Translations under genes and position numbers: made by a program | Origin: Sulfuricella sp. | GTDB lineage: Bacteria > Pseudomonadota > Gammaproteobacteria > Burkholderiales > Sulfuricellaceae | Reading direction: 5' to 3' | Length of the DNA stretch: 8,328 nucleotides | Assembly (NCBI GenBank): GCA_019911785.1 | Contig: JAIOJM010000067.1 | Coordinates: 1 to 8,328, forward strand | Shown here: positions 1 through 8,328 of the stretch, piece by piece | Position numbering within the stretch: position 1 is the first letter of the stretch | How the letters are laid out: every line of letters begins with the position of its first letter | The notes under the pieces: generated by a model | Databases searched by the model: none | The model's input: only the letters and a program-made list of their open reading frames with translations | What the model was told of the DNA's origin: nothing

Positions 1-367
1 CCCTGTCGAGATGCTGGCGTCGAATGGGGGAGATTGCGAAGATTATTCCATTGCCAAATACCTGACTCTCAAGGATTTGGGGATACCGGTGGAGCGGATG
101 CGCATTACCTACGTCAAGGCACTGAATCTCGGCGTCTCGCACATGGTGCTGGCCTATTACCCCACGCCGGACTCGGACCCCTGGATTCTGGATAACCTGG
201 CTGAAGACATTCGCCTCGCTTCCAGACGTACAGACCTGGAACCGGTATACAGCTTCAACGACGACGATCTATGGGCAGGATCCGGGCCGGGGAAAAAGGG
301 TGGCGCCAGCCAGGTTCGTCTGTGGCGGGAATTACAGGAAAAGCTCGCGCGCGAACAGAAGATGTAA
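1..367 (+). CDS. Transglutaminase-like cysteine peptidase (BTLCP/LapG-type), 5' end missing
   Basis: Only the C-terminal part is present. The frame is open to the left edge, so the ATG at base 11 is internal (the reading before it is P-V-E). Numbering from that Met, the catalytic Cys is C9 in GGDCEDYSIAK, the His is H44 in VSHMVLAY, and the Asp is D61 in WILDN. This C-H-D order and spacing, and the later YSFNDDDLW block, are those of the bacterial transglutaminase-like cysteine proteinase family (DUF920, PF06035). Its best-known member, LapG, is a periplasmic calcium-dependent protease that releases biofilm adhesins under control of LapD. No LapD-like protein or adhesin is visible here, so LapG function is an inference and no symbol is given. 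The stop is TAA at 365-367. The gene converges on the cytochrome c gene to its right. Confidence 0.87.
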   Translation, partial: PVEMLASNGGDCEDYSIAKYLTLKDLGIPVERMRITYVKALNLGVSHMVLAYYPTPDSDPWILDNLAEDIRLASRRTDLEPVYSFNDDDLWAGSGPGKKGGASQVRLWRELQEKLAREQKM

Positions 368-541
368 CAATTTACGTGATAATGGGCCGAAATTGATATT
401 CGATTCTTTAATCAGACAGGCTGCCAGAAGGGGGGCTCCTCCCACCTCGAAACGGCTTGACGCCTTGCCAACCACGCCGGCACCCGGACTGACGTTGATG
501 GTTTCCATCTCGGCCATACAGGGTTGGCGGGCGCCTCGTTA
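368..541. other. Convergent intergenic gap without a clear terminator
   Basis: This gap separates the peptidase gene (plus) from the small cytochrome c gene (minus). No hairpin followed by a T-run was found in either direction. The only short GC-rich self-complementarity is around 430-445 (a G-run followed by CTCCTCCC), with no T-tract. On the minus strand the frame following the double TAA stop of the cytochrome gene stays open to 332, with an ATG at 517. That ORF lacks a good ribosome binding site and was not called as a gene. Confidence 0.5.
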
Positions 542-883
542 TTAGAGTGAGAGTATCCAGTCGGCCAGATTTTTCTGCTCGTTAATGTCCTTGGTATCGA
601 TGAGCTTGTGCTTCTCTTCCTTGCCGTCTGAAAGCTTGACCATCGGCTCCGTGGTGAAGTTGGTAATCAGCTTGCTCTGGCCATCGGCCTTGCCCTTGTA
701 TTTAGCCGCAACTTTCTTGTAGGAAGGGCCCTTTTTGGTCTTGTCGACAGCATGGCACTTCATGCAGTCGTTCCGTTTTGCCAGAGCCTTCGCGGCATCT
801 GCATCAATGGCGACAGCCTCGGTAGACATGACCGTGACGGCAGAAAATGCAAACAACATGCTGGCGATAATTTTGTGTTTCAT
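542..883 (-). CDS. Small periplasmic mono-heme class I cytochrome c
   Basis: The 113-residue product begins with a Sec signal peptide (about residues 1-25, cleavage after AVA), giving a mature domain of about 88 residues. Heme attachment is CMKCH at residues 40-44, followed by the GPSYKKVAAKYKG block typical of c551/c552-like electron carriers. The C-terminal helix ends in NLADWILSL. The usual GPxPM loop carrying the axial Met is absent. Counting back from W109, the ligand position falls near H92 (in EKHKL), while the only nearby Met is M81. A ribosome binding site GGGAG lies at 891-895, 7 bases from the ATG. The gene starts 36 bases after the b/c cytochrome gene on the same strand and is probably co-transcribed with it. 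Its likely role is as soluble electron shuttle for that membrane protein (inference). It ends in two consecutive TAA codons. Confidence 0.92.
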   Translation of the reverse strand: MKHKIIASMLFAFSAVTVMSTEAVAIDADAAKALAKRNDCMKCHAVDKTKKGPSYKKVAAKYKGKADGQSKLITNFTTEPMVKLSDGKEEKHKLIDTKDINEQKNLADWILSL

Positions 884-919
884 TTTATTTCTCCCGATCT
901 GATTAATAAGAAATTCCGG

Positions 920-2926
920 CTAGTTGGTCATGGCGCCGGCAAACCCGACTATCACCAGGACCAGTAGCGTCAGGCCGATGGCGATCAGCGCCAGGCCCAG
1001 GATCTTGGAGCCCAGGGTCATGGGCCGCGACGGCGCATCCACCAGATACTTGTCCAGCTCGCCCGTATCCACCAGGCGCTGATACTGGGCCGGATGCTCG
1101 CGGCGGAACTCTTCCAGCGACTGGGTGCCGGTGAACATCACGATGTCCGGCGGAGGCAGCTTGTCCGGCCGGAAGTGGTTGTTGAAGAAGTGCACCGTGA
1201 AGAGGAACACCGCCGCCAGGAAGGCTTCCTCGCCATGCACGATGGTGGCGACGTTGAATATCCACCCCGGCAGGTAGGTCGCGGTCACGGTCGGGAAGGC
1301 CAGCAGCAGGCCGCTGGCGCCGATGATGGAGACCCCCCAGAACACCGCCCAGTAGTCGAACTTTTCGAAGTAGGTCCAGCGGTCGAAGCGCGGTTTCTCG
1401 CCCTTGCCGAAAAACCACTTGAACATGCCCACGCAGTCCTCAAGGTCCTTCCAGTTCGGCACCAGCGAATCCGGGCCGAACCAGCGGAAGCTCCTGTCGC
1501 GCAGCAACTTCTGCATCACGTAGACGAAGTGGATGAAGAAGATGCCGATGAACAGTGCGGCAGCCACCCGATGGATCAGGGCGAGGCCGCGGGCGCCGCC
1601 AAGCGCCTGGGCTACGACCGGCGCCCATCCGGTATGGGAGAACAGCGCCGCGGTACCGGTCAGCACCAGCGTCATGGTGATCAGGGCGAAAGCCAGGTGG
1701 GCGATGCGCCAGCCTGCCGGGAAGCGCTGGAAGAACTTCTTCTCGTCCTGCGGCAGCCCCTCGGTACGCACGTGCGGAACGGTCTTGTGCGCCTTGCGAT
1801 CCTGCCATTCGCGGTAATACCACAAGCCGGAATGCAGCCAGAAGAAGGCGAATACGCCGATCAGCAGGGCAACCATGAACTTGGTGGCGATCCACACTTG
1901 CGGATACTTTGCGAAATCGTGGCTATTGGCATGGGGGCCGAAGGTGGCGAAGCCGGCGGTGGCCAGCGGCCGTTTCTTGCCGTCATGGCACTCCTTGCAG
2001 GTCTTCAGGCGGTTGTCGGGGTGCACCTTCGACTTGGGGTCCTTCGCCGACAGAATTCCGTGGCTGCCGTGGCAGTTGTAGCACTTGGCCGTTTCGGCAT
2101 AGCCGAGCTTGGTGACCTGGCCGTGATAGGTGTCGCGGTACGTTTTTAGGTTTTCCTTATGGCAACTGCCGCATTCCTCGTTGTTGAGGAGCTTGAACGA
2201 GTCCAGTGAGGTATTGGTGATCTCGTGGTTGGTGTGGCAACTGGTGCAGACGGGCGCCTTGGCATTGTTCTTGTCGAGAACTTCCTTGCCATGGACGGAC
2301 TCCGCGAATGTTTCGAGCTGCTCGTCGTGGCATTTCTCGCCGCACAGTGCGGGAACCTCATTGCGCCACGCGACGTATTGCGGGCTCTTCTTGTCGGCCG
2401 GCACGTTGAAGCCGTGCGTGTTATGGCACTCGGTGCAGTTGGCATTAGGCTGCGTCGGATTGTCCGTGTTCGGACGCGCATGGAAGGATTTCTTGTAGGC
2501 CTCGATATTCTTGGCTACGGTTTCCAGCCGCGGCTGGGCGCCAGTCGTGCCGGCCTGCTTCGCCTTGTCCCACAGGGCCTGGTGGCACTGCGCGCAGTCG
2601 GGCGCCTTGGCGCCGCTCTTCTGATGCGGGCTGACGTTATCGGTGATGTCGGTGTGGCAGGCGACGCATTCCATCTTGGCATGCACGCTCTTGCCGTATT
2701 TATCCGGGTCAATGTCATGCAGCGGACGGCTTTCCCCGTCGGCCCCCGGCACTTCGAGTTTGCCCTTCTTGCCGTCGTGGCAGGTCTGGCAGGTGGCGTT
2801 GTCGAGTGTTTGCGATGCATGAGCTGCTTTTTGGATGTCGGCGGCAGTGACTGGCAATGTCGTCAGGGCGCCCGCCACGCAGACAACGGCGGCCATGACC
2901 CACTTCGCAAATTGACTGGTATGCAT
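920..2926 (-). CDS. Inner-membrane nonaheme c / b-type cytochrome fusion (CbcL-like quinone oxidoreductase)
   Basis: The 668-residue protein has a signal peptide (about 1-29), a periplasmic multiheme domain (about 30-340) and a membrane domain with six predicted helices (roughly 346-366, 404-428, 447-470, 524-545, 555-583, 640-663). Nine heme c sites are visible, starting at C46, C87, C111, C164, C195, C227, C252, C282 and C310. Eight are CxxCH and the fifth is CGEKCH (CX3CH). Additional His residues (such as H70, H82, H101, H149, H171, H212, H234, H268, H289) could give bis-His ligation. The membrane part resembles HydC/FdnI-type diheme cytochrome b; candidate b-heme ligands are H410, H452, H466, H564 and H579. 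Nine c hemes joined to such a b domain is the layout of Geobacter CbcL, which oxidises quinol toward extracellular acceptors. Orthology is not proven, so no symbol is given. The first ATG is chosen because it yields a complete signal peptide; its ribosome binding site is weak (GGAC). Confidence 0.93.
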   Translation of the reverse strand: MHTSQFAKWVMAAVVCVAGALTTLPVTAADIQKAAHASQTLDNATCQTCHDGKKGKLEVPGADGESRPLHDIDPDKYGKSVHAKMECVACHTDITDNVSPHQKSGAKAPDCAQCHQALWDKAKQAGTTGAQPRLETVAKNIEAYKKSFHARPNTDNPTQPNANCTECHNTHGFNVPADKKSPQYVAWRNEVPALCGEKCHDEQLETFAESVHGKEVLDKNNAKAPVCTSCHTNHEITNTSLDSFKLLNNEECGSCHKENLKTYRDTYHGQVTKLGYAETAKCYNCHGSHGILSAKDPKSKVHPDNRLKTCKECHDGKKRPLATAGFATFGPHANSHDFAKYPQVWIATKFMVALLIGVFAFFWLHSGLWYYREWQDRKAHKTVPHVRTEGLPQDEKKFFQRFPAGWRIAHLAFALITMTLVLTGTAALFSHTGWAPVVAQALGGARGLALIHRVAAALFIGIFFIHFVYVMQKLLRDRSFRWFGPDSLVPNWKDLEDCVGMFKWFFGKGEKPRFDRWTYFEKFDYWAVFWGVSIIGASGLLLAFPTVTATYLPGWIFNVATIVHGEEAFLAAVFLFTVHFFNNHFRPDKLPPPDIVMFTGTQSLEEFRREHPAQYQRLVDTGELDKYLVDAPSRPMTLGSKILGLALIAIGLTLLVLVIVGFAGAMTN

Positions 2927-2975
2927 GTTTTTTGTCCGATGATGAGATGTGGCTGGTCAATCGACCGGTAGCATC

Positions 2976-3023
2976 AAAAAACAGCCTGCCCTGGCCTGAT
3001 TGCCAGACACCGGACAAGCTGTT
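2976..3023 (-). terminator. Intrinsic terminator after the EB_dh-type cytochrome gene
   Basis: Read on the minus strand, AACAGCTTGTCC (3023-3012) pairs with GGGCAGGCTGTT (2991-2980), a 12-bp stem containing two G-T wobbles. A smaller inner TGGC/GCCA stem is possible. The hairpin is followed by six T residues (2981-2976). It begins 10 bases after the stop codon of the upstream cytochrome gene and ends about 50 bases before the ATG of the b/c fusion. It should reduce or stop read-through between the two genes. Confidence 0.8.
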
Positions 3024-3032
3024 GGCGCCGGA

Positions 3033-4346
3033 TTACGGCAGCTTGACGGCGTTGATGTCCACCTTGACGCCCTTCTTGACACCTAGCCCCAGGGTTTTCT
3101 CGAAGGAAATCTGGTGGCCGCGCGTGGTGATGTTGTCGTCATGCACGGCAAAGCCCACGTTGTATACGCCACCGGCCTTCAACGTTTTGTCGTCATCATT
3201 GGTCAGACCCAGCGGGCGGATCATCACTACCGTCCACATGCCGTCCTTCCAGCTGGCGATGGCGTTGTTGTCGGCGGCCGAGCCCTTGGCATCCTCGCGA
3301 CTCGTGATGTAGTCGGGAATCATGTCGCCTTCCTTCCAGCCAGCGTTCGGATCAAACGGCACCGCGTTCTGCTCGCGAATCAGGAAGTGATCGCCCTTGC
3401 GCAGATCCAGCGCCTTGATCGACTTGTAGCCGACTTTCTTTTCGTCCCACATGAATTTCGGTGCATGCGTCGTCTTGTCGGCATTGCCCGCGAACATGTT
3501 CTTGCCGGCATCGAAGTTGCGCCATTCGAGAACGTAACCGTCGTCCGCCATGCCCACCGGGTGGCTGCGATGCGCACGCCACTGGATCAGGTCGACGAAG
3601 TAGCCAGCGGCCTTGAGTTTGGCGATTTCTTCCACCGTCTTGCCGGTTTTCCAGTCGGACGCGTCGGTGCGGCTGTCGGGCAGATACTTGCGCACATCGT
3701 TTTTCTTGAGCGCAGTCAGCATCGGATTGGCGGCGACTTCTTCCTTGGTGAATTGTTTCGGTGCATCGCGCGAGCCGTCATGGCAGGTCAGCCAGCAACC
3801 CTGCTTGGCGAAGCCGGCCACCTTGCCATCGTCGAGCATGATCGACATCCGGTCTTCATAGATGCCGGGCTGCTTGCCTTCCTGCACGACCTTATCCAGC
3901 TTGGGATAACCCCAGACTTTCCATTCCTTGCCATCGAAGCGCAGGTACTGGTGTTCGGTGCCGGGATAGGGATTGTCGGTTTTCCACTGGAAGCGCAGAT
4001 AGGCGTTCTTGTCGTCGTACGCGGCCTGTACCTTGAGTTCCTTGTAGCCCGACTTGCCCGGTACCGCCATGGGCTCCAGTCGACCGCCTTTCACGATCTT
4101 GTTGCCCATGTCCTTTTCGGCATCTTCTTCATCATGACAGGACAGGCAAGCGTCGCCGCGCTTGACCTCTGCCGCGGCATTCTTGTGGTCGTCGCTACGC
4201 ACCCATTCATAGGTTGATTGACCGGGATAGAACAGCGGAACTTTGACTACGGGAATCTTGGGCCAGTTGATCTTGGCCGGGTCGGCGGCCAAGGCGGATC
4301 CTGCGGTCAGAGCGGCAAAGGCCAGGATAAATGCGCTTTTGTTCAT
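3033..4346 (-). CDS. Periplasmic c-type cytochrome with ethylbenzene-dehydrogenase-type heme-binding domain
   Basis: The start chosen is the ATG at 4344-4346. It has AAGGGG 6 bases upstream (4353-4358) and gives a clean signal peptide (residues 1-20, ending SALA) in a 437-residue protein. A longer frame from 4385 would overlap the sigma-54 promoter and place 13 residues before the signal peptide. Two heme c motifs are seen: CLSCH at 67-71 and CWLTCH (CX3CH) at 184-189. The rest matches the EB_dh / cytochrome c-552-DMSO-reductase-like heme-binding family (PF09459), including the C-terminal signature VHDDNITTRGHQISFE near 401-416. In ethylbenzene dehydrogenase the related gamma subunit binds heme b through Met and Lys, but here c-type sites are built in and no molybdoenzyme subunit lies nearby. 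Its likely role is periplasmic electron carrier for the downstream b/c fusion (inference). It is the first gene after the sigma-54 promoter. Confidence 0.9.
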   Translation of the reverse strand: MNKSAFILAFAALTAGSALAADPAKINWPKIPVVKVPLFYPGQSTYEWVRSDDHKNAAAEVKRGDACLSCHDEEDAEKDMGNKIVKGGRLEPMAVPGKSGYKELKVQAAYDDKNAYLRFQWKTDNPYPGTEHQYLRFDGKEWKVWGYPKLDKVVQEGKQPGIYEDRMSIMLDDGKVAGFAKQGCWLTCHDGSRDAPKQFTKEEVAANPMLTALKKNDVRKYLPDSRTDASDWKTGKTVEEIAKLKAAGYFVDLIQWRAHRSHPVGMADDGYVLEWRNFDAGKNMFAGNADKTTHAPKFMWDEKKVGYKSIKALDLRKGDHFLIREQNAVPFDPNAGWKEGDMIPDYITSREDAKGSAADNNAIASWKDGMWTVVMIRPLGLTNDDDKTLKAGGVYNVGFAVHDDNITTRGHQISFEKTLGLGVKKGVKVDINAVKLP

Positions 4347-4384
4347 GGTAATCCCCTTCAGTGAATAAGGTGTAACCAAGAACA

Positions 4385-4400
4385 AGCAAGGGCTATGCCA
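4385..4400 (-). promoter_or_regulatory. Sigma-54 (-24/-12) promoter for the cytochrome module
   Basis: The minus strand reads TGGCATAGCCCTTGCT, which fits the consensus TGGCACG-N4-TTGCW at every position except CG (here TA). The GG and GC doublets have the required 10-base spacing. The predicted transcription start is near 4374, leaving about 27 untranslated bases with an AAGGGG ribosome binding site before the ATG at 4346. The gene just upstream encodes a GAFTGA-type sigma-54 activator, which makes a chance match unlikely. Confidence 0.85.
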
Positions 4401-4461
4401 TCATCAATTCCGCAGTTTTAGCGAGGTTTTCTGATTTCTGGATATAAAAATTCAATAGAAT

Positions 4462-4499
4462 TGTCACTAATTAACGACAGCCGTCACTAATCGGTGACA
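4462..4499. promoter_or_regulatory. Tandem dyads: probable enhancer sites for the NtrC-type regulator
   Basis: Two 18-base dyads lie 20 bases apart, about two helical turns: TGTCACTAATTAACGACA (4462-4479) and CGTCACTAATCGGTGACA (4482-4499). Both start with GTCACTAAT. The second has perfect GTCAC/GTGAC arms with a 6-base spacer; the first is imperfect. Their centres are about 96 and 116 bases upstream of the predicted sigma-54 start, which suits upstream activator sites. The second dyad overlaps the last codons and TAG stop of the response regulator gene. Assignment to that regulator is inference. Confidence 0.68.
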
Positions 4500-5857
4500 A
4501 AACCCCAGCGCTTCATTCGCACATAAAGATTCTGGCGCGGAATCCCGCTTAAACGGGCCGCTTCGGAGATATTGCCGCCGGCCGCTTCGAGCAGGCGGCG
4601 CAAGTATTCCCGCTCGAACTCGGCACGGGCATCCTGGTAAGCGAGCGCCTGCGCCGGAGCAGCGCTGTCCGGGTGGCCGTCCTCGGGTCGGTGGTCGGTG
4701 GCCGGACTGAGATGGATGGCGTCGATGGCCCCGCCGGGCTGAAGCGCGACGACGCGTTCGATGCAATGTTGAAGCTCGCGCACGTTGCCCTGCCAGCGGC
4801 AGGCTTCCAGGGCGCGCACCGCTGCCGGTGTGAAGGGGCCGCATTCCTTGCCGAACTTGGTATTGTAGTGATCGAGAAAGTGGGCGGCCAGGCGGATGAT
4901 GTCGCCCTCCCGCTCGCGCAGGGGCGGCAGGTGTACCGCCACCACGTTGATGCGATAGTACAGGTCCTCGCGGAAGCGTCCGGCCTTGACTTCGCCGGCG
5001 AGGGAGCGATTGGTGGCGCAGATCAGGCGGAAATCGGTGGTGCGCGGCTGGGTGCTGCCGATCCGGGTGAAGCTGTGATCCTGCAGCACGCGCAACAGGC
5101 TGCTCTGCAGCTTGGGGCTCATGTCGGCGATCTCGTCGAGGAACAGGTTGCCGCCATGAGCCTTCTCGAAATAGCCGGGATTCGCCTGGCTGGCGCCAGT
5201 AAAAGCGCCCTTCTCGTAGCCGAAGAGCAGGCTTTCCAGCAACGACTCCGGCAAACCTCCGCAGTTGACCTCGAGGTAGGGCTTGGAGGAACGCGTGCTC
5301 CAGGCGTGGATGAGCTTGGCGATGAGATCCTTGCCGGTGCCGCTCTCCCCCTCCAGCAGCACGGTGGTATCCAGGCCGGCGACTTGGCGGATCTGGCCCA
5401 GCAGCCGCTCCATGGCCGGCGACCGGCCAACGACATCCGGCGCACCCTCGGCCGCAAGGCGGGAGCGCAGGCTGTCGATTTCGCGATAGGCACGGTCCAG
5501 CTCGAGCGCCTTGCCGATCACCGCCTCCAGCGCCTCCAGGTCTTCGAACGGCTTGGTCAGGTAGTCGAACAGGCCTTCGCGCACCGCCGCCACCGCATCG
5601 CGCACGTCGGCGAAACCGGTGATCAGAATCGCCACCAGCTTCGGCCGTCGCGCCCGGAACTCGCGCAGCAGTTCGAGCCCGTTATCCCTGGGCAGACGCT
5701 GATCCATCAGCACCAGGTTGAAATCCACTGCGGCAAACAATTTCCGCGCTGCCGCCCCGTCCTCGGCCAGATGCACTTCGGCGGTCTTGCGCATCAGTTG
5801 CTCGATGAGCGTCCGGGTGTAGCGGTCGTCGTCGACGACCAGGATTTTAGGCACCAT
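4487..5857 (-). CDS. NtrC-family sigma-54-dependent response regulator
   Basis: Starting at the ATG at 5857 (456 residues) gives the standard receiver N-terminus MVPKILVVDDD; an ATG at 5917 would add 20 residues with no receiver homology. The receiver domain (about 3-120) has acidic pocket D9-D11, phospho-acceptor D52 in LVLMDQRLP and K102 in LTKPF. The AAA+ domain (about 143-375) shows Walker A GESGTGKD (170-177), the sigma-54 contact loop GAFTGA (217-222), Walker B NLFLDE (237-242) and arginine-finger region FREDLYYRIN (295-304). A Fis-type helix-turn-helix (about 425-452) ends the protein. All key catalytic residues are present, so it should be a functional activator. The start overlaps the kinase stop by 11 bases, suggesting translational coupling. 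The sigma-54 promoter and dyads directly downstream point to the cytochrome genes as its target. I cannot assign it to a named regulator. Confidence 0.95.
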   Translation of the reverse strand: MVPKILVVDDDRYTRTLIEQLMRKTAEVHLAEDGAAARKLFAAVDFNLVLMDQRLPRDNGLELLREFRARRPKLVAILITGFADVRDAVAAVREGLFDYLTKPFEDLEALEAVIGKALELDRAYREIDSLRSRLAAEGAPDVVGRSPAMERLLGQIRQVAGLDTTVLLEGESGTGKDLIAKLIHAWSTRSSKPYLEVNCGGLPESLLESLLFGYEKGAFTGASQANPGYFEKAHGGNLFLDEIADMSPKLQSSLLRVLQDHSFTRIGSTQPRTTDFRLICATNRSLAGEVKAGRFREDLYYRINVVAVHLPPLREREGDIIRLAAHFLDHYNTKFGKECGPFTPAAVRALEACRWQGNVRELQHCIERVVALQPGGAIDAIHLSPATDHRPEDGHPDSAAPAQALAYQDARAEFEREYLRRLLEAAGGNISEAARLSGIPRQNLYVRMKRWGFVTD

Positions 5858-7628
5858 GTTCAAGCTGACCCGATTTGTTCTCTTCCGGTAACCAGATTGC
5901 AAATTTCGTGCCATCACCGGGTAGGTTGCTGGCGGTCACAGTCCCGCCGTGCAACAGCGCCACGTGCTGCACCACCGGCAAGCCCAGGCCGGTGCCGTCG
6001 CCGCGGGTGGTGAAAAAAGGCAGAAATATCTTGTCCATAACGTCCGGGTTTATGCCCTTGCCATGGTCGGTAACCGAGAGCTCCCAGCCTGGCGTGCCGC
6101 TGTCCGAGCTCACTGCTCGCTCGAGAGCAATGACGATTGCACCCTCGTCGACGCTTGCCTGGGCTGCGTTGAGCAGCAGGTTGAAGAGGGCGTGCCGGAT
6201 CAGGATCGGATCGACGGTGAGGACGACCGGTTGCTCGGGCAGTCGAGTTTCTACCGGGCAGTGCCGGCTCTCGGTCTGACGAAACAGCAGAACGGTCTCT
6301 TCGATCACCTGTGCCATGGGGGTGGGCATGCTTTCGAAGCAGGAAACCTTGGAAAACCGGAGCATCGATTGAATAAAGGCGTGGCAGTCTTCGCCAGCAC
6401 GGTGTATCTCCGTCAGCAGCGCGCGGGTTCGGGCCGGGTCATCGGCTTCACGGGCGGCCAGCTGGGCGAGGTTTACCACTCCGACCAGGGGATTGTTGAG
6501 CTGATGGGCGATCTCGCCGACCATCGTGCCCAGGGCGGAGAGCTTTTCAATTTGCAGGATACGTTGATGTTCGGTACCGAGGCGCAGAAGCTGGTGCTCG
6601 AGATCGTGCTGGCGCTGGTAATCGCGCTCTACCCGGTCGAGGGCGAAATAGAAAAGGCCCAACACACCGGCGCCGGCGAGCAGACTCAGCAAAGTCACCG
6701 CTATGACCGACCTCTGAAACGTCTTTTGCAGCGCCGTGATGTCGCGCATCACCACCAGTTCGCCGATATGGCGCCCTCCGGCATCGTCGAGCGACAACAT
6801 GGCCAGATGCAATACGCGGTTGCCGTCCTCGAATACCTCGGCACCCCCGACGCGCAGGCTGGCGAGGACACTGTCGTTCAGGGCAGAGGGCACTTGCCCG
6901 GTGGTCTGCGCCACCGTCACATGGGAGCCAAAGCGATCCCAATTTCCTTGCCGGTTGAGCAGAGCCAAGCCGTGATGCCATTGTTGCGGCGACAGAAAAT
7001 GCTTGTCCACCAGCACAATCAAGTCCACCGACAGGCTGTCGCGGATTTCCTCCACGAGATACTCGATCTCTTCGCCGATCTCGAGATAACCGAGGACGCT
7101 ATCGCCCCGCTTCCATGGCGTCACCAGCCGCAACGTGAGCGTCCCCAGCGGTCCCAGCTCGAGCCCGTGCACGGCTTTCCCCTGGTCCCTCGCCTTGGCC
7201 ATCGTCGCCCGGTTGATCAGATCGCCAAACTCGCCAGGACTATGCAGGCGCAGCACGTTGATCAGGTCGGGGCTATTGAAGTAGAGATGCGTGATGCGAT
7301 GATCGGCGCGCAAGGTCTCGAACAGTGGCCCGGCTTCGCGTGTCAGCGCGGCGCGGTCGAGACTGGCGAACGCCGTCTCGATGGCGTGATTGTCCATCAT
7401 GGTGCGCAACACGGCCTGCATCAGATTCGTATCCTTGCCGAGCTTCTGGTCGACCAGCTTTGCCACGGCAGCCACGCGTTCAGCAAGATCGCGGTCGCGA
7501 ACCCGGACCTCCACGAAGTACGCCGTCGCCGCAAAAGCGCCCAGGATGAAGGTGAGCACGATCGCGAACGGCCAGATGAAGGCTGCCTTTACACGCCGGG
7601 GTTTTCTGCCAAGAGATGCTGATTTCAC
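5847..7628 (-). CDS. Membrane sensor histidine kinase with periplasmic Cache-like sensor
   Basis: Numbered from the GTG at 7628 (593 residues): a basic N-terminus, first transmembrane helix about 15-38, a periplasmic domain of about 270 residues, second transmembrane helix about 308-330, and a coiled-coil linker to about 361. The HisKA H-box is GEIAHQLNNP with H375, and the HATPase domain has N-box FNLLLNAAQ, G1 DHGKGI and G2 GDGTGLGL. The periplasmic stretch with ITHLYFNSPD, RLHSPGEFGD and GLELGPLG resembles double-Cache sensors (dCache_3 type), which bind small ligands; the ligand is unknown. The start is uncertain. A TTG at 7724 would add 32 residues but sits directly after a hairpin and lacks a convincing ribosome binding site; the GTG site is also weak. 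It partners the overlapping sigma-54 response regulator. No PAS domain or C-terminal receiver is present. Confidence 0.92.
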   Translation of the reverse strand: MKSASLGRKPRRVKAAFIWPFAIVLTFILGAFAATAYFVEVRVRDRDLAERVAAVAKLVDQKLGKDTNLMQAVLRTMMDNHAIETAFASLDRAALTREAGPLFETLRADHRITHLYFNSPDLINVLRLHSPGEFGDLINRATMAKARDQGKAVHGLELGPLGTLTLRLVTPWKRGDSVLGYLEIGEEIEYLVEEIRDSLSVDLIVLVDKHFLSPQQWHHGLALLNRQGNWDRFGSHVTVAQTTGQVPSALNDSVLASLRVGGAEVFEDGNRVLHLAMLSLDDAGGRHIGELVVMRDITALQKTFQRSVIAVTLLSLLAGAGVLGLFYFALDRVERDYQRQHDLEHQLLRLGTEHQRILQIEKLSALGTMVGEIAHQLNNPLVGVVNLAQLAAREADDPARTRALLTEIHRAGEDCHAFIQSMLRFSKVSCFESMPTPMAQVIEETVLLFRQTESRHCPVETRLPEQPVVLTVDPILIRHALFNLLLNAAQASVDEGAIVIALERAVSSDSGTPGWELSVTDHGKGINPDVMDKIFLPFFTTRGDGTGLGLPVVQHVALLHGGTVTASNLPGDGTKFAIWLPEENKSGQLEHGA

Positions 7629-7725
7629 GCTCGAAAGTGTGCGCCTGTGTTCGGCGGGTTGCAACTGTCGATAGCCGAAGGCCGAATAATCCTGATTTCT
7701 GTGTTGACCCCACGAATCCGGCAAA

Positions 7726-7740
7726 CAGGGCCGTGCCCTG
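7726..7740 (-). terminator. Compact hairpin downstream of the glutaredoxin-like gene, possible weak terminator
   Basis: The minus strand reads CAGGGCACGGCCCTG, a perfect 6-bp stem with a 3-base loop, followed by only TTTG. It lies about 65 bases after the stop of the DUF4124/glutaredoxin-like gene and about 100 bases before the preferred kinase start. The short T-run makes termination efficiency doubtful, though it may separate the two transcription units. Confidence 0.4.
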
Positions 7741-7804
7741 ACGCAACGGCCACGCTCCTCAGGCTAAATGGGGGTAGGAATTCGACGAAACGCAAACAGG
7801 CGCA

Positions 7805-8328
7805 CTACTTGCCCGCGCCGCCGTTAACGGCAGGTTTCTGCTCGATCCTGGTTGGCGCCGGCTCTTTCTGCTTGGGCCTCGGGAATGGGGCGCTCTTGGG
7901 ATAGCCGGCCTCGTCCAGCGCCGCGTTCCAGGCTCCAGGCGCGTACCCCTTCAGGCGGGTTACCGTGCCGACCGCCAGCACCGGCACTTCCAGGGCACCA
8001 ATCAGCTTCTTCAGCTCCGCCTGGACTTCCGGCGTGCCGGCATCTTTTTCGTTGAACGGGACGCCGCGCTGGGTCAGATGTTCGCGCGCCTTGGTGCAGG
8101 CATCGCCGCACCCGGAATTGTACAAGGTAACCGGGAAATTCTTTGCTGCCAAGCGGGAAGCATAGGGTAGCTGGACGTCATCCGCCGGCGGTGTACCGAG
8201 GGTCTTTTCCTCGACTTTCCTGGCCGCGGAAGGCGGCGGGGGCTGTTCGGAATAATGCACCTTGCCATCAAGGTCCACCCACCGGTAAAGGGAGGCGGAT
8301 TGCGCCGAATACACCGCGAACATGCAGA
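7805..8328 (-). CDS. DUF4124 / glutaredoxin-like exported protein, 5' end missing
   Basis: An ATG occurs at 8321-8323, but the frame is open to the window edge and the residues after it (FAVYSAQSA, then SLYRWVD) look like the end of a signal peptide, so the true start probably lies outside. Numbering from that Met: a DUF4124 segment (about 11-30, LYRWVDLDGKVHYSEQPP), a linker, then a thioredoxin-fold glutaredoxin-like domain (about 63-142). This domain has a C72-GDA-C76 pair and a probable cis-Pro at P114 in VPVLAVG. The spacing is CxxxC rather than CxxC, so normal dithiol glutaredoxin activity is not assured. The C-terminus (about 145-172) is Pro/Lys-rich and probably disordered. It likely acts in the periplasm or at the envelope; its substrate is unknown. 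A link to heme-Cys chemistry of the neighbouring cytochromes is conceivable but unsupported. Confidence 0.85.
   Translation of the reverse strand, partial: CMFAVYSAQSASLYRWVDLDGKVHYSEQPPPPSAARKVEEKTLGTPPADDVQLPYASRLAAKNFPVTLYNSGCGDACTKAREHLTQRGVPFNEKDAGTPEVQAELKKLIGALEVPVLAVGTVTRLKGYAPGAWNAALDEAGYPKSAPFPRPKQKEPAPTRIEQKPAVNGGAGK

Follow-up and report, generated by a model that had tools for sequence, protein, structure and literature searches.

An 8,328-nucleotide stretch of a Sulfuricella sp. genome (contig JAIOJM010000067.1; hereafter the window) contains a five-gene block that we interpret, with modest confidence, as a sigma-54-switched quinone/periplasm electron relay, in which a cytochrome of the EB_dh family (PF09459) stands where MtoAB stands in mto clusters. 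The five genes are consecutive on the minus strand, run from position 7628 down to position 542 and encode a sensor histidine kinase (HK), a response regulator (RR), the EB_dh cytochrome, a nonaheme-c/b fusion protein and a monoheme cytochrome c; all window features described below lie on the minus strand unless stated otherwise. The HK (5847..7628) contains the Pfam domains dCache_3, HisKA and HATPase_c, and its start codon is uncertain (GTG at 7628 or possibly TTG at 7724). The RR (4487..5857) is an NtrC-type sigma-54-dependent regulator with receiver, Sigma54_activat and HTH_8 domains assigned by Pfam and NCBIfam, and its translation includes the GAFTGA motif. EB_dh (3033..4346; 437 residues; Pfam E 4.6e-68) is a diheme c-type cytochrome with a gamma-subunit-like fold. 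The MtoC/MtrH (CbcL-type) fusion protein (920..2926; 668 residues) joins a nonaheme c N-terminal half to a putative b561-type C-terminal membrane half, and the MtoD-type cytochrome c (542..883; 113 residues) has a single CXXCH motif. No molybdoenzyme, catalytic alpha or beta subunit, porin (MtoB/MtrB), MtoA/MtrA decaheme cytochrome or outer-membrane cytochrome is encoded in the window. The first-pass annotation of this DNA had described a regulated redox locus free of a catalytic oxidoreductase, a porin and an outer-membrane cytochrome, with the five genes and a sigma-54 promoter consecutive on one strand. All of these elements were located where it had placed them, and its description holds within the window.

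The block is conserved beyond the window. The five genes are adjacent and on one strand in 10 other genomes, and the gene-neighbourhood comparison that the first-pass annotation had called for thus finds them travelling together. Six of the blocks are found in the best 80 of 408 confirmed MtoC relatives, which were collected with an alignment of the window's MtoC (L002 from Sulfurisoma sediminicola, L023, L029, L032 from a Thiobacillus denitrificans metagenome-assembled genome (MAG), L037 and L059), and four are found among 37 loci taken from other genomes (L135, L155, L156 and L157). In each of the other homologue scans, about 8,000 candidates were scored and 120 were listed. In the 10 other block loci, the HK gene is located upstream of the RR gene, the HK and RR are 58–89% and 71–95% identical to those of the window, respectively, and intergenic gaps between called genes do not exceed 305 bp, as measured with a non-standard in-house codon-usage script that gives rough gene starts and may miss small genes. 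The effector genes are ordered EB_dh-MtoD-MtoC in nine of these loci, and L135 has the order EB_dh-MtoC-MtoD of the window. L135, whose genome belongs to the same family as Sulfuricella sp. T08, is also the nearest relative (95%, 89%, 90% and 98% identity for RR, EB_dh, MtoC and MtoD, respectively), in keeping with a probable origin of the window in a Sulfuricellaceae-like betaproteobacterium. A few kb downstream of the L135 block, genes for cytochrome c maturation are observed (CcmE, CcmC-like, CcmB and an ABC ATPase; 1528-4198, minus strand). At E 1e-80 or better, the EB_dh gene is patchily distributed, with 4 of 399 genomes in the order and 5 of 369 in the class (the centre genome, G002, is in both counts). 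At family level, the counts are 1 of 22 for the G264 family, the one being G264, and 25 of 199 for the G016 family.

The regulatory DNA of the block contains a putative promoter and a putative activator site. A -24/-12 (sigma-54) promoter, TGGCATAGCCCTTGCT (4385..4400), starts 54 bp upstream of the EB_dh gene and scores 19.4 of 20.4. A palindrome, GTCACCGATTAGTGAC (4483..4498), coincides in part with the final codons of the RR gene and is the candidate enhancer site of the RR; an imperfect second copy, GTCGTTAATTAGTGAC (4463..4478), has two mismatches to GTCAC-N6-GTGAC. In the window alone, matches with up to two mismatches to the palindrome and promoter patterns occur at chance level (4 versus 3.5 and 4 versus 3.0, respectively), and the case for both elements therefore relies on their conservation across relatives. 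Scoring covered the DNA upstream of 47 EB_dh genes. A -24/-12 promoter of at least 18.2 of 20.4 precedes all 16 EB_dh genes located directly downstream of an RR gene (window included), compared with 2 of the 31 others and 2% of shuffled-sequence controls; the loci in these counts and in the codon counts below are related, and the rates do not represent independent trials. GTCA-N8-TGAC is found upstream in 12 of the 16 RR-adjacent loci (all except L037, L059, L154 and L155), compared with 1 of the 31 others and 0.4–0.9% of shuffles. L162, one of the exceptions in the group of 31, nevertheless conforms to the rule, as a second kinase gene separates its RR and EB_dh genes. Sigma-70 promoters and terminators, searched in window positions 400-7900, did not rise above chance. 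The promoter with enhancer sites that had been proposed for the RR is thus matched across the RR-adjacent loci (promoter in all 16, palindrome in 12), and the block combines an NtrC-type RR, a predicted -24/-12 promoter and a candidate upstream activator site, as expected for sigma-54 two-component regulation.

The palindrome and promoter were further combined into a composite pattern and searched for in 15 whole genomes. Six genomes contain exactly one match each, and nine contain none. Five of the matches are located directly before EB_dh, and the sixth is located directly behind the RR gene in L162; the reversed-pattern control gave 0. The strict palindrome GTCACNGANNAGTGAC was matched in 5 of the 15 genomes, every time at the EB_dh/RR locus. 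These searches used strict patterns, by which weaker regulon sites could be missed. Because each of the six genomes has a single composite, in every case immediately after the RR gene, the RR seems to be devoted to the EB_dh-mtoC-mtoD operon. The same observations bear on the notion that unrelated respiratory genes came to lie side by side in the block by chance. In favour of this notion, several other neighbours are seen for both EB_dh and MtoC, but the recurrence of the block in ten other genomes (some of them mutually close relatives) and a matched promoter/enhancer that tracks the RR led us to reject this explanation, which we consider exceedingly improbable.

A second candidate sigma-54 promoter, TGGCACGAAATTTGCA (5898..5913), has no mismatch and lies 56 bp ahead of the RR start, within the 3' end of the HK gene. 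The intragenic promoter precedes the RR genes of 12 of 13 tested relatives with at least 71% RR identity (scores of 19.7–20.4 of 20.4; the L162 RR is not among the 13) and none of four RR genes of 58–63% identity. The exception, L163, has a close RR and a score of 16.4 at the corresponding place. Codon and enhancer tests were performed on 12 genes (the window and 11 relatives), excluding L163 and L166, although the L166 RR gene has the promoter (20.4). All 12 genes have T as the third base of the first codon of the site, even though the encoded amino acid varies (D, G, H, N or S). The Phe/Ile codon also ends in T in all 12, yet the usage of T-ending Phe/Ile codons is 4–21% in nine of the genes; it is 33–52% in the remaining three, including that of the window. 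The synonymous sites of the promoter thus appear to run against codon usage, which points to more than conserved codons; the log10 figure of -20.2 from the codon test assumes independent loci and so overstates the effect. An enhancer site with fewer than three mismatches was not found within 300 bp upstream in any of the 12 genes, and feedback on the RR is for this reason a proposal. In L163 (1024-5936, minus strand) and L166 (10224-14500, plus strand), a second kinase/RR pair, whose RR is 75–78% identical to that of the window, adjoins a 7-heme cytochrome gene. In L163, a separate b561 gene follows the 7-heme cytochrome gene, resembling an MtoC split in two.

The nonaheme-c/b fusion protein belongs to the CbcL/MtoC/MtrH family described in PMC6295460. 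The window MtoC has eight CXXCH motifs and one CX3CH motif (residues 195-200). This is the fifth heme site; in an alignment of 20 sequences that includes the window, it reads CX3CH in 14 and CXXCH in 6, the two forms differing by a one-residue indel. Since all 20 have one of the two motifs there, the CX3CH motif is taken as a real ninth heme site, and all nine heme sites are conserved in the 20 sequences. The C-terminal half matches PF01292 (b561) at 30.0 bits, just under the Pfam cut-off of 30.1, and exhibits five hydropathy peaks above threshold past residue 340 (the family usually has six transmembrane helices). An AlphaFold2 model built with 20 sequences had a pLDDT of 55 and was not used. 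The window MtoD has its best Protein Data Bank match in 4xxl (E 3.5e-30), followed by an engineered c555 trimer (1.6e-16) and c551 (1e-8). 4xxl is the structure of MtoD from Sideroxydans lithotrophicus, which PMC4412085 reports to be a class I cytochrome with bis-His heme ligation and a potential of +155 mV. The window MtoD aligns with 4xxl over its full length and matches His with His in the distal-ligand region; this residue would be compatible with His95 of PMC4412085 and is a candidate distal ligand.

With a recognisable MtoC/MtrH protein and a recognisable MtoD, the genomic setting is familiar for all of the effector proteins but EB_dh. PMC6295460 places mtoC with mtoA, mtoB and mtoD in Dechloromonas aromatica and Gallionella capsiferriformans and mtrH with mtrABC in Rhodoferax ferrireducens, and PMC8805035 places mtoC and mtoD beside mtrCAB in betaproteobacteria; MtoC, MtoD and CbcL-type genes are proposed there to belong to extracellular electron transfer pathways. 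The mtoABCD/mtrABC clusters (PMC6295460) and the block share the nonaheme-c/b561 fusion (its b561 half in the window being a prediction), an MtoD-type cytochrome, clustered genes and a place on the quinone side of the respiratory chain. The block differs in that it lacks MtoA, MtoB and MtrC and has in their stead EB_dh and the two-component system linked to sigma-54. Geobacter CbcL joins a nine-heme N-terminal half to a b-type membrane half, as the window MtoC is predicted to do, but it is encoded in a different cluster and has about 35% identity to MtoC/MtrH (PMC6295460). The first-pass annotation had considered the combination one that it did not recognise. This assessment stands insofar as we found no described system with EB_dh added; it does not stand for the nonaheme-c/b protein and the small cytochrome, which are known as MtoC/MtrH and MtoD. 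The quinone-to-periplasm direction stays a proposal; PMC6295460 reports that comparison within the CbcL/MtoC/MtrH family brought out no feature by which quinol oxidation could be told from quinone reduction.

The neighbourhoods of MtoC reflect this known setting. In the 80 MtoC loci, DmsE/MtrA-type decaheme, MtrB/PioB porin and OmcA/MtrC decaheme genes are frequent neighbours. Among 94 MtoC genes in 117 loci, in which MtoC-centred and EB_dh-centred fetches are mixed, 71 have MtoD, 39 MtrA, 34 MtrB and 21 EB_dh within 6 kb. In L044, L048, L064, L067 and L075, MtoC and MtoD adjoin a set of molybdoenzyme genes that resembles Arr but falls far short of the ArrA cut-off (963 of 1600 bits in L048). 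In function, the block would correspond to the inner part of the Mto pathway, but it stands outside that pathway as defined by MtoAB. Membership in a complete Mto pathway was rejected; MtoAB is absent from the window, and MtrB is matched in only 3 of the 10 other block genomes. No MtrB/PioB match was found in the remaining seven, several of which are draft MAGs of unstated completeness. The three matches comprise two full genes and one 66-residue remnant. The remnant is the C-terminal part of an MtrB porin located about 4 kb behind MtoC, near an intact block (L157 2138-2371, minus strand).

These data allow a different explanation, namely that the block is a detached half of an Mto conduit, in which MtoC and MtoD serve an MtoAB/MtrCAB that lies elsewhere or has disappeared recently, with EB_dh as an additional shuttle in the periplasm. 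Both MtoC and MtoD typically accompany mto/mtr genes, the MtrB matches in three block genomes are compatible with such an origin, and EB_dh occurs with MtrA, MtrB and MtoC in L051 and with the same three and MtoD in L136, where MtoC is on one strand and MtoD, EB_dh, MtrA and MtrB are on the other. The window MtoC has MtoAB-linked relatives at 55–78% identity, is located within a MtoAB-rich set of 17 rows (SH-aLRT 96) and groups with the MtoAB-linked MtoC of Sulfuricella T08. However, the seven block genomes without MtrB/PioB include G264, which has an EB_dh of 89% identity and a main contig of 3.13 of about 3.2 Mb, and no association between EB_dh and MtrB is seen across the 199 genomes of the G016 family (9/25 versus 47/174, p 0.35). 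We therefore judge a detached half-conduit unlikely, though it is the most plausible of the alternatives.

The phylogenies suggest how the relay proposed here came together. In an MtoC tree of 88 rows, a single clade of the 11 block members was rejected (p-AU 0.0009). The window and L135 group together with the Sulfuricella T08 protein, L002 groups with another MtoAB-linked MtoC, and the remaining block members lie elsewhere. In the EB_dh tree, the 11 block members need five changes. Both trees come from quick searches without bootstrap, and MtoC rows shorter than 550 residues, EB_dh rows shorter than 350 residues, L161 and L170 were dropped. Because a single clade of the 11 block MtoCs was rejected, the modules seem to have been swapped while the pairing recurs. 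The trees indicate that the arrangement was assembled several times or that MtoC was replaced in place.

EB_dh contains two c-heme sites, CLSCH (residues 67-71; 4134..4148) and an atypical CX3CH motif, CWLTCH (residues 184-189; 3780..3797). Its fold matches the heme-b gamma subunits EbdC (2ivf_C) and NXR-C (7b04_C) of the type II DMSO-reductase family, and EB_dh may bind heme b in addition to the two c hemes. EB_dh differs from EbdC in being about twice as long, in its two covalent c-heme sites and in the absence of alpha and beta subunits from the block. A likeness is also observed in the 'alternative NxrC' proteins of Nitrospina gracilis, which, according to PMC3578206, unite a DMSO-reductase-like heme-b domain with one to three c-heme sites and are proposed as nitrite oxidoreductase subunits; the EB_dh studied here occurs with MtoC and MtoD and without NxrA/B. 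Homologues are widespread (2,798 among 7,995 candidates scored, with c-heme sites not checked in all), and sequences shorter than 340 residues were dropped from the heme-site comparison.

The neighbours of EB_dh are varied. Among 46 EB_dh genes (including L161, a gene piece, and L170, which lacks c-heme sites), 21 have MtoC, 9 a NapC/NirT tetraheme cytochrome, 5 FrdA and 2 MtrA nearby. As 25 of the 46 have no MtoC within 6 kb, the EB_dh-MtoC pairing is optional, and the co-occurrence of the five genes, recurrent as it is in 10 other genomes, is not exclusive. In six loci with a two-component system (L154 and L162-L166), a NapC-family tetraheme cytochrome takes the place of MtoC beside EB_dh. 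NapC-family proteins of this kind resemble quinol dehydrogenases of the CymA/ImoA-NapC type, which have four c hemes in about 200 residues, whereas MtoC has nine c hemes and a predicted b561 domain. In L147 (5551-12445) and also in L148, L149 and L168, FrdA-FrdB and two small genes are immediately followed on the same strand by EB_dh and MtoC, and no two-component system is present. These varied neighbours suggest that EB_dh is a mobile partner of quinone-side modules that is tied to no single enzyme.

The gamma-subunit fold raises the alternative that EB_dh serves a molybdoenzyme whose genes lie elsewhere, either as its gamma subunit or as its exit cytochrome, and that MtoC and MtoD tie this enzyme to the quinone pool. 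Besides the EbdC and NXR-C matches and the Nitrospina proteins of PMC3578206, this alternative draws on L144, where EB_dh directly follows Arr-like alpha and beta genes and a TorD-cluster chaperone gene, and on L154, where the order is RR-EB_dh-NapC-FeS-NrfD-like-Phs/Psr-type alpha, with a TtrB/NrfC-like FeS protein (FeS and NrfD-like genes also occur in L139). The catalytic genes of L144 and L154 are Arr/Phs-like and not of type II. The window, by contrast, has no alpha or beta gene, no ArrA-like label was found within 6 kb of the 10 relatives' blocks (ArrA-like genes being the molybdoenzyme type scanned for there), and the partners of EB_dh are varied and include fumarate reductase. A molybdoenzyme subunit is therefore a rather doubtful assignment, slightly more so than the detached half-conduit.

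EB_dh could also be terminal itself, as a ligand-binding or reductase cytochrome that acts on a small molecule (e.g. a nitrogen oxide) and is fed by MtoC and MtoD. Its heme-1 region is weakly similar to cytochrome c'' (1e8e, E 0.032). In Sulfurisoma, a 289-residue EB_dh paralogue with CXXCH and CX3CH motifs adjoins a cytochrome cd1 nitrite reductase gene (L171 8478-9347, minus strand). This short paralogue matches DUF1924, which we take to be the SHP family, at E 0.00029, under the cut-off. A cytochrome d1 domain is encoded in 8 of the 10 block genomes. The 1e8e and DUF1924 matches are both weak, however, active-site evidence is absent, and the association of EB_dh with cd1 nitrite reductase in the 199 genomes is not significant (20/25 versus 107/174, p 0.08). 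A terminal role for EB_dh is improbable on this evidence. In the main text of the paper on Ca. Nitricoxidivorans (L164, EB_dh 43% identical), the word 'ethylbenzene' is absent, and nothing on EB_dh expression was found there.

In the sigma-54-switched relay that we favour, the dCache kinase would respond to a periplasmic signal and phosphorylate the RR, as its domains suggest. The RR would bind the candidate GTCAC-N6-GTGAC site behind its own gene and drive EB_dh-mtoC-mtoD from the predicted -24/-12 promoter, a step for which the comparative evidence is strong, and the intragenic promoter may provide feedback on the regulator. MtoC would exchange electrons between quinol and its nine c hemes, as expected from the family. 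EB_dh, which resembles a gamma subunit but stands alone and has two c hemes and perhaps a heme b, would fill the place of MtoAB. Together with MtoD, it may form a periplasmic relay or adapter that exchanges electrons, in one direction or the other, with a redox enzyme whose genes lie elsewhere.

Several points weigh against this relay. The 18.2 promoter threshold was chosen after the scores were known, the composite was found in only 6 of the 15 genomes, so that the notion of one target per genome rests on those six, and more than half of the EB_dh genes (25/46) lack a nearby MtoC. The lack of a link between EB_dh and either MtrB or cd1 nitrite reductase in the 199 genomes and the conjectural heme b of EB_dh fall on the same side. 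The window covers 8,328 nucleotides, so MtoAB may lie elsewhere in that genome, and several block genomes are draft MAGs. PMC13390432 states that the potential of MtoD is too high to reduce ImoA and favours PmcA over MtoD, which argues against MtoD as a free relay. The direction and the terminal partner of the relay are, on the present sequence comparisons, proposals. Two further genes flank the block in the window, the 3' part of a LapG-like cysteine protease gene truncated at the edge of the window (2-367, plus strand) and a gene for a DUF4124 and glutaredoxin-like protein upstream of the kinase (7805-8326, minus strand).

Taken jointly, these observations allow a broader and more tentative reading, to which we give somewhat less credence than to the relay itself. 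MtoC and MtoD, which iron-oxidising bacteria are known to carry, may have parted more than once from the outer-membrane wire and been built into an inducible periplasmic module. In this module, EB_dh would be a universal adapter with MtoC or NapC on its quinone side and, on the other, partners that can be exchanged (molybdoenzymes, fumarate reductase, MtoAB or none in the vicinity). The regulator would control its own synthesis as well as the operon by means of two sigma-54 promoters, of which one is concealed within the kinase coding sequence. In the literature searched, which covers few subscription journals, no description of EB_dh combined with MtoC/MtoD was found. No paper was found in which MtoC occurs with 'ethylbenzene dehydrogenase', and MtoD occurs with this term in PMC10654088, in unrelated sections. 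MtoC and MtoD are known as Mto/Mtr partners; their occurrence with EB_dh and a sigma-54 system appears to be new.

The block provides the widespread, uncharacterised EB_dh family with a testable partner set, and it constitutes a ready-made inducible system with one promoter, one regulator and three effector genes. The intragenic sigma-54 promoter, apparently under synonymous constraint, would be a regulatory feature of its own. If most block genomes lack a porin-cytochrome conduit, the presence of MtoC and MtoD alone should not be taken to imply extracellular electron transfer.

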